A DNA stretch of 64,000 bases from Hydrogenothermaceae bacterium (GTDB lineage: Bacteria > Aquificota > Aquificia > Aquificales > Hydrogenothermaceae). Made by a program: the position numbers and the translations under genes. Every line of letters begins with the position of its first letter. Position 1 is the stretch's first letter. Where the stretch lies: the NCBI GenBank assembly GCA_026418535.1, contig JAOABC010000001.1, positions 124,001 to 188,000 of the forward strand, read 5' to 3'. Of this stretch, positions 19,810 to 63,641 are shown in pieces. The notes under the pieces are model-generated. The model was not told the DNA's origin. It made no database searches and worked only from the letters and a program-made list of their open reading frames with translations.

Positions 19810-20532
19810 TTGAAGTTAAATGGAAAGACAGCTCTTATAACAGGTGGTGCTAGGAGGATAGGAAGAGAGTTAGCTATTAACCTCTCTAAGGACGGTGTAA
19901 ACGTGGTGATACACTATAACTCCTCAAAACAGGAAGCAAGTAGACTAAAGAAAGAGTTAGAGTCCTTTGGAGTAAAGGCCTATACATTTAAGGCAGACCT
20001 GCTGTCAGAGTCCCAGATCGTCCGGCTAGCCGAAGAAGTTATGAGTATAGTTGATGTGGATATACTTATCAACAACGCCTCTTTATACTACAAGACAAAG
20101 CTTGATAGTGCAACCTTTGAAGATTTAGATAGGTTTTACACTATACATGTTAAAGCCCCTTTCTACCTTTCCAAGGTTTTTGGTAAGAAGATGTTTGAAA
20201 AAAGAGAGGGTAGGATAATAAACATCGTAGACTACTCAGCTATTACCCCCTATCCGAATTACACACCTTACACAGTTTCTAAGGGAGCACTCCTGACTCT
20301 CACTAAAGCTTTTGCTAAAGAGTTTGCTCCCTATGTCTTAGTTAATGCAGTTCTACCTGGTCCTATCATCCCTCCTGAGAATTTAGAGGATACAGAAAAG
20401 CCTTTAAATAAGACCCTTCTAAAAAGGTGGTCAGGTGGTATAGAGGTTTATAAAGCTGTAAAATATCTAATAGAGACAGACTTTACTACTGGTAGTTTTA
20501 TCCCTGTAGAAGGAGGAAGACTGATATTTTAG
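19810..20532 (+). CDS. Short-chain dehydrogenase, pteridine reductase-like
   Basis: 240 residues, TTG start. The NADP-binding motif is TGGARRIG; the Arg after GGA and HYNSSKQEA resemble the pteridine reductase/FolM branch. NNASLYY, a Ser in DYSAITPYPN and the catalytic YTPYTVSK (Tyr-x3-Lys) are in place, as is the PGPI loop. The likely substrate is a dihydropterin or a related carbonyl, not proven. The end carries AGGAGGA at 20511-20517, which serves the next gene. Confidence 0.85.
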   Translation: MKLNGKTALITGGARRIGRELAINLSKDGVNVVIHYNSSKQEASRLKKELESFGVKAYTFKADLLSESQIVRLAEEVMSIVDVDILINNASLYYKTKLDSATFEDLDRFYTIHVKAPFYLSKVFGKKMFEKREGRIINIVDYSAITPYPNYTPYTVSKGALLTLTKAFAKEFAPYVLVNAVLPGPIIPPENLEDTEKPLNKTLLKRWSGGIEVYKAVKYLIETDFTTGSFIPVEGGRLIF

Positions 20533-21290
20533 ACCATATCCTGTTTTTAGGAACTGCTGGTGGAAGGACCGTTGTATTCAGACAGCTAAGATACTCCGGA
20601 GGTATCTGGCTTAACCTTAATGGTAAGAATATCCTTCTAGACCCAGGACCAGGTAGCCTAATAAGGATATTTGAGTTTAGAAGGGATCCAAGAGAGTTAG
20701 ATGCTATAGTCCTATCCCATAGACATCTGGACCATGTGGCGGACGTTGGGTCAGTTGTGGAGTCTGGGACTGAGAGTAATAAAAAGAAGTTCTCTTTCCT
20801 TCTTGCTCCGGAAGACGCTATAGGGGGAGATGACCCTGTAGTCCTAAAGTATACTATGAAAGGATTTAAGCAGATTTGGCAGACAGAGATATATAGAAAC
20901 TACTACTACGAAGGAATAACTATAAGGCCTGTTGTGGAGCATATTCACCAAGGAGCAAAGACCTACAGTATAGAGTTCTCTACTGATAAGAAAAGGTTTA
21001 TATTTGTTCCTTGTGGAAAGTTCTACAAAGGTATGATAGCTGGATATAAGAAAAACCCTGATATAATGGTGTTCAACACAACTTTTTTAAGACCAAACAA
21101 TAACTTTTTTCATCTTTCAGCTGAAGATGTTGAAAAGATAATAAGAAAAGTTAACCCGAAGAAAGCTGTAATTACACATTATAGTTTACAGATGTTGAGG
21201 GAGAACCCAACTAAGGTTGCAAAAGCTCTTTCAGACAGGACAGGTGTAGAAGTGATAGCTGCAGAAGATGGATTAAAGGTGGAGTTTTAG
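20526..21290 (+). CDS. Metallo-beta-lactamase-fold hydrolase with a non-standard start codon
   Basis: The protein is about 254 residues if it starts at ATT 20526. Conserved sequence FLGTAGGRTVVFRQLRYSGG, the LLDPGPGSL turn and the metal motif HRHLDH (His65, His67, Asp69, His70) all lie before the first ATG/GTG/TTG of the frame (GTG 20736), so initiation must be further upstream. ATT at 20526 is 8-9 bases after AGGAGGA and overlaps the dehydrogenase stop; ATC 20538 and CTG 20541 are alternatives. Later motifs are VEHIHQGAKTYSIEF and AVITHYSL. RNase Z/lactonase-like fold; substrate unknown. Confidence 0.82.
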   Translation: MLDHILFLGTAGGRTVVFRQLRYSGGIWLNLNGKNILLDPGPGSLIRIFEFRRDPRELDAIVLSHRHLDHVADVGSVVESGTESNKKKFSFLLAPEDAIGGDDPVVLKYTMKGFKQIWQTEIYRNYYYEGITIRPVVEHIHQGAKTYSIEFSTDKKRFIFVPCGKFYKGMIAGYKKNPDIMVFNTTFLRPNNNFFHLSAEDVEKIIRKVNPKKAVITHYSLQMLRENPTKVAKALSDRTGVEVIAAEDGLKVEF

Positions 21291-22403
21291 ATGAGAGGAG
21301 TGATAGTTGGTGGTGGAGTGATAGGCCTCTCACTAGCAAGGGCCTTCTCAAAGCTTGGTTATGAGGTTGTCTTGATAGAAAAAGGTTTTCTTGGGAGAGG
21401 GGCATCCTGGGCAGCTGGAGGTATGCTCGCTCCTCAGGCTGAGGGACTATCTGGAGCCTTCTTAGACTTTTGCTTAGAAAGTAGGAATATGTACAGAGAG
21501 TTTGCCCAAGAGGTGATGGTGGATACAGGTGATGATATAGGTTTTTGGGAGTGTGGTATTATCTCCCCTGCTTTTTCTGAGGAAGATGCAGAGATGCTAA
21601 AGAGGAGAGTTTTTAACTACAACAAGATGGGGTTAAGAGCTCAGTGGTTGAGTAGAGATGAGTTGGAGACAGCAGGTTATATACTGGGTAAACAGATAGT
21701 TGGAGGAGCTTACTATCCGGATGATAAACAGGTTGACAACAGGCTTCTTACAAATTCCCTGATAAAGTTTGTAAAGAGCACGAAAGTAAATGTAATGGAG
21801 AGAACTATAGCTGTAATGATAAACACAGACAAGGGAAGGTTTGTGAGTGTTAAAACGGACAAGGGAGATGTCTCCGGAGATTTCTGTATAATCTCTGCAG
21901 GGGCATGGACGGGGGAGATATACAATATAAAAGTCTTTCCAGTTAAAGGTCAGATGATCTCCTTTAGACAGAATAAAAGAGATTTAGATAAGATATTCTA
22001 CAGTAAAAAGGCTTACATAATACCAAGGAAGAACAGTAACATGGTTCTTGTTGGTGCAACTGAAGAGAACGTATCGTTTAAAGCTGAGAATACAGTTGGA
22101 GGAGTCTGTGTTCTAATTAAAGGTCTTCTTGAGACCTTTCCTAATATGAAGAACAGGGAGTTCACAGACAAGTGGTATGGCTTTAGACCTACAACTCCGG
22201 ATGGATTGCCTATAATCGGGAAGACAGATACGGAGAATCTCTATGTAGCAACTGGACACTACAGGAATGGAATACTGCTCACACCAATAACAGTAAAACT
22301 TTTAGTAGACCTAATCCATAAAAAAGAAGAGAGCCCTTATTTGAATATATTCAATTTCTTTAGATTTAATCAAATAGAGGGGACTAGGAATAAAAGTCAG
22401 TGA
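21291..22403 (+). CDS. thiO: Glycine oxidase ThiO-like FAD oxidoreductase
   Basis: 370 residues. FAD dinucleotide motif GGGVIGLSLARAFSKLGYEV near the N-terminus, GRGASWAAGGMLAPQAE typical of ThiO/DadA-type oxidases, then ATGHYRNGILLTPIT at the C-terminal FAD-binding end. ThiO oxidises glycine to the imine used to make the thiazole of thiamine. It begins immediately after the MBL gene stop and overlaps the next small gene. No other thi gene lies here, so a related D-amino-acid oxidase role remains possible. Confidence 0.88.
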   Translation: MRGVIVGGGVIGLSLARAFSKLGYEVVLIEKGFLGRGASWAAGGMLAPQAEGLSGAFLDFCLESRNMYREFAQEVMVDTGDDIGFWECGIISPAFSEEDAEMLKRRVFNYNKMGLRAQWLSRDELETAGYILGKQIVGGAYYPDDKQVDNRLLTNSLIKFVKSTKVNVMERTIAVMINTDKGRFVSVKTDKGDVSGDFCIISAGAWTGEIYNIKVFPVKGQMISFRQNKRDLDKIFYSKKAYIIPRKNSNMVLVGATEENVSFKAENTVGGVCVLIKGLLETFPNMKNREFTDKWYGFRPTTPDGLPIIGKTDTENLYVATGHYRNGILLTPITVKLLVDLIHKKEESPYLNIFNFFRFNQIEGTRNKSQ

Positions 22404-29034: not shown

Positions 29035-30914
29035 ATGGAGAAGTCAGACTTACTACTGAAGGTAGAGGAGAAGTTTTTTCCTCCATAGTGGAGCAAGCAT
29101 GGGTTAAAGATTATGAGACTCTCTATAAGCAGTCTATACAAAACAGGGAGGAGTTTTACGCCCAGATAGCTCAGGAGCTTGTATGGTTTGAAAAGTTTGA
29201 AAAAGTTTTAGAGTGGAACTATCCTTATGCTAAGTGGTTCATAGGTAGTAAAACTAACATAAGCTACAACTGTATAGACAGACACGTGAATCATGGAAAG
29301 AGAAATAAAGTTGCCTTTATATCTGTAGATGAAGAGGGAAACGAGAAGAAGATTACATACGGAGAGCTACTTGACTTAGTGAGTAGACTTACAAATGGTT
29401 TGAAATCTCTGGGTATAAAGAAAGGAGATAGAGTTTCCATCTATATGCCTAACACTGTAGAGGCTGCTGTTGCTATACTTGCTTGTGCAAGGATAGGTGC
29501 TATTCATAGTGTAGTTTTTGCAGGTTTTAGTGAGGGGGCTTTGAAGATAAGGATAGATGACGCTAAGGCTAAAGCTGTTATAACAGCTACTTACACAAAG
29601 AGGAGAGGGAAGAAGAAGATCCCTCTATTTCCTACACTAAAGGAAGCTGTTAGAGATCTGGATTTTGTTGAGAAGATAGTTTTATAGGACAGAGATAGCG
29701 AGCTGTCTGATGAATATGAAGAGCATAACGTCGTAGACTTCTATAAACTGATCGCTAATTCTCCAAGGGAATGTCCTCCGGAGGTTCAGGACGCGGAAGA
29801 CCCATTGTTTATCCTGTACACATCCGGAACAACAGGAAAACCTAAAGGTGTTCTACACACCACAGGTGGTTATATGGTAAACACGTACACGACCTCGAAG
29901 TATGTGTTTGATCTGAAGGAAAACGATATATACTGGTGTACTGCCGATGTGGGTTGGATTACAGGACATAGTTACATAGTTTACGGACCTCTACTGAATG
30001 GAGTTACATCCGTTATGATGGAGGGTGTTCCTGTTTACCCTCATCCGGACATCTGGTGGGAATACGTCCAGAAGTATGGAGTAAACGTCTTCTATACAGC
30101 ACCTACAGCCATTAGGATGTTGATGAGGTTCGGGGAAGAGGTCCCTGCGAAGTACGACCTTTCTTCTCTGAAAGTCCTTGGTTCTGTTGGAGAACCTATA
30201 AATCCCGAAGCATGGCTCTGGTACTACAAGATATAGGAAGGGAAAAAGCTGTTATAGTGGATACCTGGTGGCAAACAGAGACAGGTGCTCACATGATAAC
30301 TACTCTTCCATCATACACTGCTAAACCTGGAAAAGCAGGAAAACCAATGTTCGGAATCGAAGTTGCGATGGTGGACAAACAGGGGAATCCTATGCCATCA
30401 AATCAAGTAGGACATCTGGTTATAAAGAATCCATGGCCTTCAATGCTTAGAACTTGCTGGGGAGAGCCAGAAAGGTATGAGAAGTACTGGAATGAAATTG
30501 CTGGCTTCTACTCAGCAAGAGACTTGGCTGCGATAGACGAAGAGGGATACATTATGGTAGTTGGTAGGGCGGATGACGTCCTCTCTGTGGCTGGACATAG
30601 GATAGGAACTGCTGAAGTAGAGTCTGCTATACCATGCAGTGGCAGAAGCGGCAGTGATCGGAAAACCAAACGACATAAAGGGAGAGTCTATAAAAGCCTT
30701 TGTAATTTTAAAAGAAGGGTACAAACCCTCTGATGAACTAAAAGAGAGAATAAAAGACACAGTTAGGGAAGTCCTTGGCCCTATAGCAGTTCCTGACGAG
30801 ATAGAGTTTGTCGACAAACTACCAAAAACTAGAAGTGGAAAGATAATGATGAGGCTCTTAAAGGCAAGAGAACTTGGACTTGAGATAGGAGACACATCTA
30901 CCTTAGAAGAATAA
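29035..30914 (+). pseudogene. acs: Acetyl-CoA synthetase, disrupted by three frameshifts and one stop
   Basis: Pieces of one Acs (~625 residues) run in order through three frames. The N-terminus MEKSDLLLKVEEKFFPP starts at ATG 29035 after AAGGAGGT, then hits a stop at 29086; the next frame continues with VEQAWVKDYETLYKQS. A TAG at 29685 interrupts this frame, which then reads [19 protein letters not shown] (AMP motif). Around 30230 the frame shifts after [10 protein letters not shown] to [18 protein letters not shown], and near 30635 after [10 protein letters not shown] to [14 protein letters not shown]. The catalytic-loop Lys ([11 protein letters not shown]) is present. No full product is possible without errors in the read; lesions are scattered, which argues for real decay. 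Confidence 0.85.
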
Positions 30915-62715: not shown

Positions 62716-62789
62716 TAGAAAACCTCCTTTTTAGTTTGTAATATAATAATATAACTGGCTTTAAACTCCCTTATGATGGAGAGCAGGAA

Positions 62790-63641
62790 TTGGAAAGAAA
62801 CTTTTTTGTTAAATCTCACGGTCTTGGAAATGGTTATATAGTTATAGATTCTGATTATATAACCTTCCAGATAAAGCCCGACCTGGTCAAAAAAATGTGC
62901 GATGTTCACTATGGTATAGGAAGTGATGGTCTGCTTGTTAAGTATCCATCGGATGTTGCGGATTTTAAACTTAGGATATTCAATCCGGATGGCTCTGAAG
63001 CAGAGAAGAGTGGAAACGGACTGAGGATATTCTGTAAGTTTCTCTACGATTATAAATACACAACAGAGGATGAATTCACTGTAGAGACAAAGGGAGGTAT
63101 TGTAAAGGCCAAGATAGAGGAGAAGGAAAAAGGTAAAGCACGAGTTATAACTGTAGATATGGGAAAAGCGACCTTTAAACCTGAGGAAGTACCTGTAAAC
63201 ATAGAGAAGGATGAATGTTTAGACATGGATTTAGAGGTTGGTGGTAGGTCTTTCAAGGTAAACTGTGTGTCCGTTGGTAATCCTCACTGTGTGGTGATAG
63301 TGGATGAGTTAAATGAAGAGGATATAAAAAGGTTCGGTCCATTAATAGAAAACCATCCACTATTTCCTAACAGAACTAATGTCCAATTTGTAAAACTTCT
63401 CTCAAAGGAAGAGGTTAGTATACTCATATGGGAAAGGGGAGCAGGGTTTACCCTCGCCTCTGGAAGTTCTTCCTGTGGTGTTGCTTCTGTGATGGTGAAA
63501 AAAGGTCTTACAGATAGACGGATAAAGGTTAATATGCCCGGGGGTACCCTTACTATAGAGGTAGATCCTAACTTTAACATCCGGATGACGGGAGAGGTTA
63601 GGGAGGTCTGTAGAGGTGTCCTGAGTGATGAGTTCTTCTAA
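62790..63641 (+). CDS. dapF: DapF-like epimerase with both catalytic Cys replaced by Ser
   Basis: 283 residues, TTG start. Substrate-contact motifs of diaminopimelate epimerase are kept: HGLGNG, NPDGSE, GNPHCVVIV, NRTNVQF and ERGAGFT. The two catalytic motifs differ: CGNG is SGNG (AEKSGNGLR) and ACGSGAC is ASGSSSC, so both acid/base cysteines are serine, each a single base change from Cys. A normal two-thiol racemisation mechanism is therefore unlikely. It may act on another substrate, use another mechanism, or bind only. AGAGCAGGA lies upstream of the TTG. Confidence 0.8.
   Translation: MERNFFVKSHGLGNGYIVIDSDYITFQIKPDLVKKMCDVHYGIGSDGLLVKYPSDVADFKLRIFNPDGSEAEKSGNGLRIFCKFLYDYKYTTEDEFTVETKGGIVKAKIEEKEKGKARVITVDMGKATFKPEEVPVNIEKDECLDMDLEVGGRSFKVNCVSVGNPHCVVIVDELNEEDIKRFGPLIENHPLFPNRTNVQFVKLLSKEEVSILIWERGAGFTLASGSSSCGVASVMVKKGLTDRRIKVNMPGGTLTIEVDPNFNIRMTGEVREVCRGVLSDEFF

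Follow-up and report, generated by a model that had tools for sequence, protein, structure and literature searches.

Escherichia coli pcnB reportedly starts at AUU, a codon said by Binns and Masters in 2002 to limit its expression; it shares its start codon with the gene studied here, but encodes a different enzyme and was reportedly described in a single species. Our gene encodes a metallo-β-lactamase-fold hydrolase in a bacterium of the heat-loving family Hydrogenothermaceae and probably starts at AUU as well. Experimental work has characterized hardly any non-canonical starts in bacteria (PMC5472188). One known case is infC, which starts at AUU in E. coli and ATC in Streptomyces (PMC5472188) and at AUA in Staphylococcus aureus (PMC13009471). 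Like the hydrolase gene, infC has its non-canonical start behind a Shine-Dalgarno (SD) sequence, and the infC of the same genome also has ATT; however, infC encodes the discriminating factor (IF3) itself, whereas the hydrolase gene has no such feedback loop. The S. aureus genes cvfC1 (AUU) and ccpN (AUA) likewise combine a conserved non-canonical start with a strong SD, although they are different genes of a different phylum, and their initiation was measured while that of the hydrolase gene is deduced (PMC13009471). Non-canonical starts with an extended SD in S. aureus reached about 10% of the AUG level in poor medium; in rich medium, one gene reached as much as 30% (PMC13009471). Streptomyces sigR (GTC) resembles the hydrolase gene in belonging to a gene pair that is coupled (presumably so for the hydrolase) and in keeping a weak start across a genus (32 of 34 genomes), but it is the first gene of its pair, its codon is GTC or GTT, and its repression by IF3 was shown by experiment (PMC5472188). 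Non-canonical starts are inhibited by IF3 in excess, and reinitiation is inhibited by it less strongly if there is an SD (PMC2268962).

The hydrolase gene (20526 to 21290, plus strand, 254 amino acids) lies in a window of 64,000 nucleotides, to which all coordinates refer unless a contig is named. It is preceded by a gene for an SDR-family oxidoreductase (19810 to 20532, plus strand; TTG start in the open reading frame [ORF] list; adh_short, 1.8e-37) and followed by the glycine oxidase gene thiO (21291 to 22403, plus strand; ATG start; TIGR02352, 3.4e-91, above the cut-off), which abuts its stop. The hydrolase frame is open after a stop at 20493 to 20495 and runs through to the stop ending at 21290, but between the upstream stop and GTG 20736 it has no ATG, GTG, or TTG. 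This GTG (20736 to 20738, codon 71) directly follows the H70 codon of the HRHLDH metal motif (residues 65 to 70; 20718 to 20735) and appears to be a false start. An ORF beginning there encodes 184 amino acids; its Pfam Lactamase_B match is gone, and just the second half of the Lactamase_B_2 match is left, without the HxHxDH half. A sequence-only reading of this DNA had claimed that a conserved N-terminus and the metal motif precede the first ordinary start codon, and both were indeed found there. Its further claim that automatic gene calling would start at 20736 and lose the active site agrees with the mechanical ORF list, on which it is based.

The same reading had placed the start at ATT 20526 (20526 to 20528), with AGGAGGA at a proper distance and an overlap with the upstream stop, and this arrangement was confirmed. 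The SD AGGAGGA occupies 20511 to 20517, the spacing from AGGAGG (20511 to 20516) to ATT is 9 nt, and the overlap with the SDR gene, whose stop TAG is at 20530 to 20532, amounts to 7 nt. In-frame codons around the start read ..AAG ACT GAT ATT TTA GAC CAT ATC CTG TTT TTA GGA... We put the probability that the gene starts at AUU 20526 at roughly 0.9, on comparative grounds set out below.

An orthologue of the hydrolase was found in 115 of 136 genomes of the phylum, our own included (E ≤ 1e-20), with a single copy in our own genome (E ≤ 0.001). Start regions were read in 109 of the 115; those omitted were G017 and G075, where the match lacks the N-terminus, and G128, G133, G134, and G135, and one of two matches was read in G119. 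Labeled by position, the starts were TTG in 76, ATG in 13, ATT in 10, GTG in 5, and ATA in 5. As the sequence-only reading had proposed, we compared start codons among the orthologues. All 10 genomes of three Hydrogenothermaceae genera (g1, two genomes; g9, seven; g10, one; our own genome included) proved to have ATT TTA at the corresponding position, preceded at 9 nt by AGGAGG. In nine of the ten, the stretch from the upstream stop to the conserved FLGT motif is free of ATG, GTG, and TTG; five of the ten have an in-frame stop three codons ahead of ATT. The conserved N-terminus lies upstream of every ordinary start codon except in two genomes: in G098 an in-frame GTG falls within the conserved part at codon 5, four codons past ATT, and in G078 a TTG does so at codon 8, seven codons past ATT, where it encodes the L of FLGT. 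The assemblies of two of the ten genomes (G097 and G099) are single contigs, making an assembly error unlikely. The other genera of the family start at ATG (five genomes of g2), TTG, or GTG. In g2, g3, g6, and g7, TTG or ATG is as far from the corresponding stretch as ATT is in the ten, but in g4 and g5 the spacing deviates. In G077 (g5), ATA occupies the 9-nt place and the next codon is TTG; this start is ambiguous and was counted as TTG.

The protein upstream of GTG 20736 is the better-conserved part. In every comparison with the other nine ATT genomes, amino acid identity was higher for codons 2 to 70 (71 to 80%) than for codons 71 to 254 (52 to 65%), and nucleotide differences in codons 2 to 70 fell mainly at third positions (from G078, 12, 3, and 36 at positions 1, 2, and 3). 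In an alignment of ten homologues, three of them archaeal (A1), 16 of the 33 invariant residues were within residues 1 to 70, opposite to the outcome that the sequence-only reading had named as speaking against it, namely conservation beginning only after 20736. All 109 orthologues have H65, H67, D69, and H70.

A quick tree of the 109 hydrolase proteins, built with the start region left out, placed the ATT orthologues in one group (SH-aLRT 98), giving the AUU start one origin, and the ATA orthologues of g14 in a separate group (SH-aLRT 100), so that non-canonical hydrolase starts require two changes in all. In the five g14 orthologues (L090, L140, L143, L144, and L145), the first ordinary start comes no earlier than codon +51. 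All five share ATA as a start-like codon at the place where g22 has ATG, although its spacing to an SD-like stretch varies; we infer that it is the g14 start. Comparison thus supports the hydrolase frame, its need for a start other than ATG, GTG, or TTG, the conservation of ATT and SD, a single origin of ATT, and an AUU-started infC in the same genome. As far as comparison shows, the ATT start is conserved and real, and it is of a known but rare kind.

Part of this conservation may belong to the SDR gene itself, because the letters overlap its codons. The final SDR codons, GAA GGA GGA .. ATA TTT TAG, contain both the hydrolase SD and the ATT, which lies inside ATA TTT just before TAG; AGGAGG and ATA TTT double as SDR codons (EGG and IF), and ATA makes up 69% of Ile codons (3,751 of 5,431 in sampled long ORFs). 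The weak start belongs to the hydrolase gene and not to its neighbors: in the same 30 family loci, ATG starts thiO in 21 of 24 and the SDR gene in 11 of 14 readable cases (both motif-based), but the hydrolase gene in 5 of 30. The hydrolase gene is poor in ATG by the standard of its genome as well, since ATG dominates the 286 own-genome ORFs of at least 100 codons (213, versus 45 TTG and 28 GTG, by a crude start assignment). The SD letters read GGA in the ten ATT genomes and GGT in five ATG genomes of g2. We rejected the idea that a strong SD compensates for the weak codon, as it rests on this one clade contrast and G070 (g2, TTG) has GGT too. The RNA around the start (20486 to 20566) folds better than its shuffles (z = -2.58; one sequence, 37°C).

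Membership of the hydrolase in the metallo-β-lactamase superfamily is indicated by its match to Lactamase_B_2 (PF12706; 69.3 bits, gathering threshold 27; 4.5e-19) and by HxHxDH in all 109 orthologues. It scored 59 bits against the RNase Z model TIGR02651, far from the equivalog cut-off of 292.95, and was below every NCBIfam cut-off among those listed. An AlphaFold2 model made with 10 sequences had a mean pLDDT of 87.1 and a first strand at residues 4 to 7. Its nearest Foldseek matches were BA1088 (1zkp), YhfI, a PhnP-family diphosphatase, and RNase Z (TM about 0.7 to 0.8; 16 to 18% identity for the best), a placement with which the sequence profiles agree. The predicted fold is thus RNase Z/YhfI/PhnP-like. 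PhnP/YhfI-type phosphodiesterases have a bridging Asp in motif 4. The position that we take to correspond to it, residue 163, is Cys in 91 and Asp in 18 of the 109 orthologues, as judged from the sequence alignment without structural superposition. The hydrolase shares its fold and HxHxDH with these proteins, but differs in its low identity, its scores below the NCBIfam cut-offs, and its Cys at the presumed bridging-Asp place. A phosphodiesterase or a nucleotide- or RNA-processing hydrolase is the likeliest function.

The hydrolase gene is probably one case of a lineage habit, given the non-canonical starts of three other genes. Codon usage was scanned over 510,086 bases of our own genome; of 389 ORFs of at least 150 codons, 24 lacked an ordinary start over at least 14 codons of coding-like sequence; six of these have a strong SD ahead of ATT, ATC, ATA, or CTG, and four of the six, namely the hydrolase gene, infC, tgt, and a heptosyltransferase gene, were supported by comparison. 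The same scan gave 2 of 172 such ORFs in G122 and 0 of 151 in G033, but these numbers come without homologue checks and do not show our own genome to be richer in such starts than its phylum. The infC of our own genome (L123 and L297:6802-7320, minus strand) has ATT behind GGAGG, and the 31 family loci read (30 from 36 matching genomes, plus our own) have ATT in 28 and ATC in 3, in keeping with a remark of the sequence-only reading on ATT-started infC; one locus (L110) also has ordinary codons further upstream.

The own-genome tgt (L183:11253-12386, minus strand, outside the window; Pfam TGT, 3e-161) has no ATG, GTG, or TTG before its FMPVG motif and likely starts at a CTG with GGGAG 7 nt upstream. 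By position, tgt starts in 29 readable of 30 family loci were CTG in 21, ATA in 2, ATT in 1, TTG in 1, and ATG in 4. Six CTG rows have an in-frame stop directly before CTG, while in 4 of the 24 non-canonical rows (L214, L218, L220, and L226) an upstream ordinary codon could serve instead. Of 28 loci outside the family, 23 could be read, giving ATG in 22 and GTG in 1. The heptosyltransferase gene (L187:11907-12875, plus strand, outside the window; PF01075) overlaps its upstream neighbor at the latter's end and likely starts at ATT. ATT without an ordinary start occurs in all eight loci read of g1 and g9 and in G074; elsewhere in the family there is ATG in G104 and two genomes of g4, and TTG or GTG in most others, four of 30 loci (L256, L260, L261, and L262) being unreadable and left uncounted. 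Since tgt and the heptosyltransferase gene have ATG in some species, weak starts are not always kept there. A re-annotation pipeline for Aquificales accepted ATT and CTG starts, and its account names no genes with such starts in the passages that describe it (PMC4227106). Among open-access titles, the terms we used retrieved no report of such starts in the Hydrogenothermaceae.

The simplest account of initiation at this AUU would be SD-led placement of the 30S subunit, aided by ribosomes terminating on the SDR gene. A 30S subunit recruited at the strong AGGAGG inside the last SDR codons, or left by ribosomes ending at the SDR stop, would put fMet-tRNA on AUU. As this is a two-of-three codon match, initiation would be weak and probably IF3-sensitive, holding the hydrolase low relative to the flanking SDR and ThiO, and hydrolase translation may be coupled to that of the SDR. 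Such low-level, IF3-sensitive control is a tentative proposal, to which we give somewhat less than an even chance. A changed initiator tRNA was considered as the cause and set aside, because the usual anticodon arm, GGGCTCATAACCC, was found in our own genome. By exact-match search it was found in 27 of 41 family genomes (20 of the 23 better ones), with no exact match in 14. By eye, one family IF3 looked unremarkable when aligned with solved structures.

AUU may, however, be the start and carry no regulatory meaning. With its strong SD and with ribosomes arriving from the overlapping SDR gene, the site could tolerate any weak codon, so that the start drifted from TTG or ATG without consequence, and we hold this to be true with a probability not quite reaching one half. 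It is favored by the overlap of starts with upstream stops, seen by eye in the hydrolase gene and in the own-genome tgt and heptosyltransferase genes, and by the tgt starts of the family, which wander among CTG, ATA, ATT, TTG, and ATG in a way that looks like tolerance. Against drift, the hydrolase codon stays ATT throughout the 10 genomes of the three genera. Broader still, and rather unlikely in our estimation, is the proposal that weak, IF3-sensitive starts in the Hydrogenothermaceae (AUU in infC, the hydrolase gene, and the heptosyltransferase gene; CUG, AUA, or AUU in tgt) form a shared layer of translational control, commoner than in any characterized bacterium, with the hydrolase gene repeatedly drawn to weak starts (AUU in g1, g9, and g10, AUA in g14, and UUG in most of the remaining phylum).

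The start could also lie at another near-cognate codon, ATC 20538 or CTG 20541. Translation table 11 includes the two among its starts, and tgt of the family appears to use CTG, but a start at either is very improbable: the two positions vary in the nine other ATT genomes (ATA/GTG/GTT and TTT/ATT/ATA/CAT, respectively), their distances downstream of AGGAGG are 21 and 24 nt, and initiation there would cut the first predicted strand. The preference of the sequence-only reading for ATT over these two codons therefore stands. Scarcely credible is a -1 frameshift near the SDR stop producing an SDR-hydrolase fusion. In its favor, the hydrolase frame is -1 relative to the SDR frame, with an SD upstream; however, by eye ATA TTT TAG offers no X XXY YYZ slippery site, and in relatives with ATG or TTG at the start place the two look like separate genes. 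In five of the ten relatives an in-frame stop separates SD and ATT; it also speaks against a fusion, if weakly, for it precedes the slip site. That the gene starts at GTG 20736, as the mechanical ORF list gives it, or is a decayed or mis-sequenced copy can practically be dismissed, as the orthologue alignment contradicts it, codons 2 to 70 are the better conserved and hold the metal-motif residues throughout, and ATT is common to 10 genomes, two of them single-contig.

Whatever its regulatory meaning, the AUU start of the hydrolase gene bears on annotation: gene finders limited to ATG, GTG, and TTG cannot see such starts and would cut the hydrolase active site, and the hydrolase, tgt, and heptosyltransferase genes of Sulfurihydrogenibium and relatives are at risk of being annotated without their true N-termini. 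The family-wide pattern of weak starts is a more interesting lead than the single ATT. In the Hydrogenothermaceae, four cases are conserved, of which one has a single origin on the tree and a parallel in another genus; together they offer a ready-made series in which to ask when a weak start codon is kept by selection and whether IF3 levels set more than infC output.

The remaining two scan candidates (on L291 and L184) lie among fragmentary ORFs. At L184:13207-14538 (minus strand) and its neighbors, starts are missing from ORFs of nitrogenase-like appearance (by eye), which may represent frameshifts or decayed genes in this assembly. Within the window, coding-like sequence precedes the first ordinary start at 29688 to 30236 and 62745 to 63641 (both plus strand), where the codon-usage scan found no SD-led near-cognate codon. 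One of the two ORFs that the scan gave in G122, which appears pdxA-like by eye (L315:7697-8707, minus strand; RAIGITLGDPAGIGSEILL), has ATA with AGGAGG 7 nt before it and no ordinary start before the motif.
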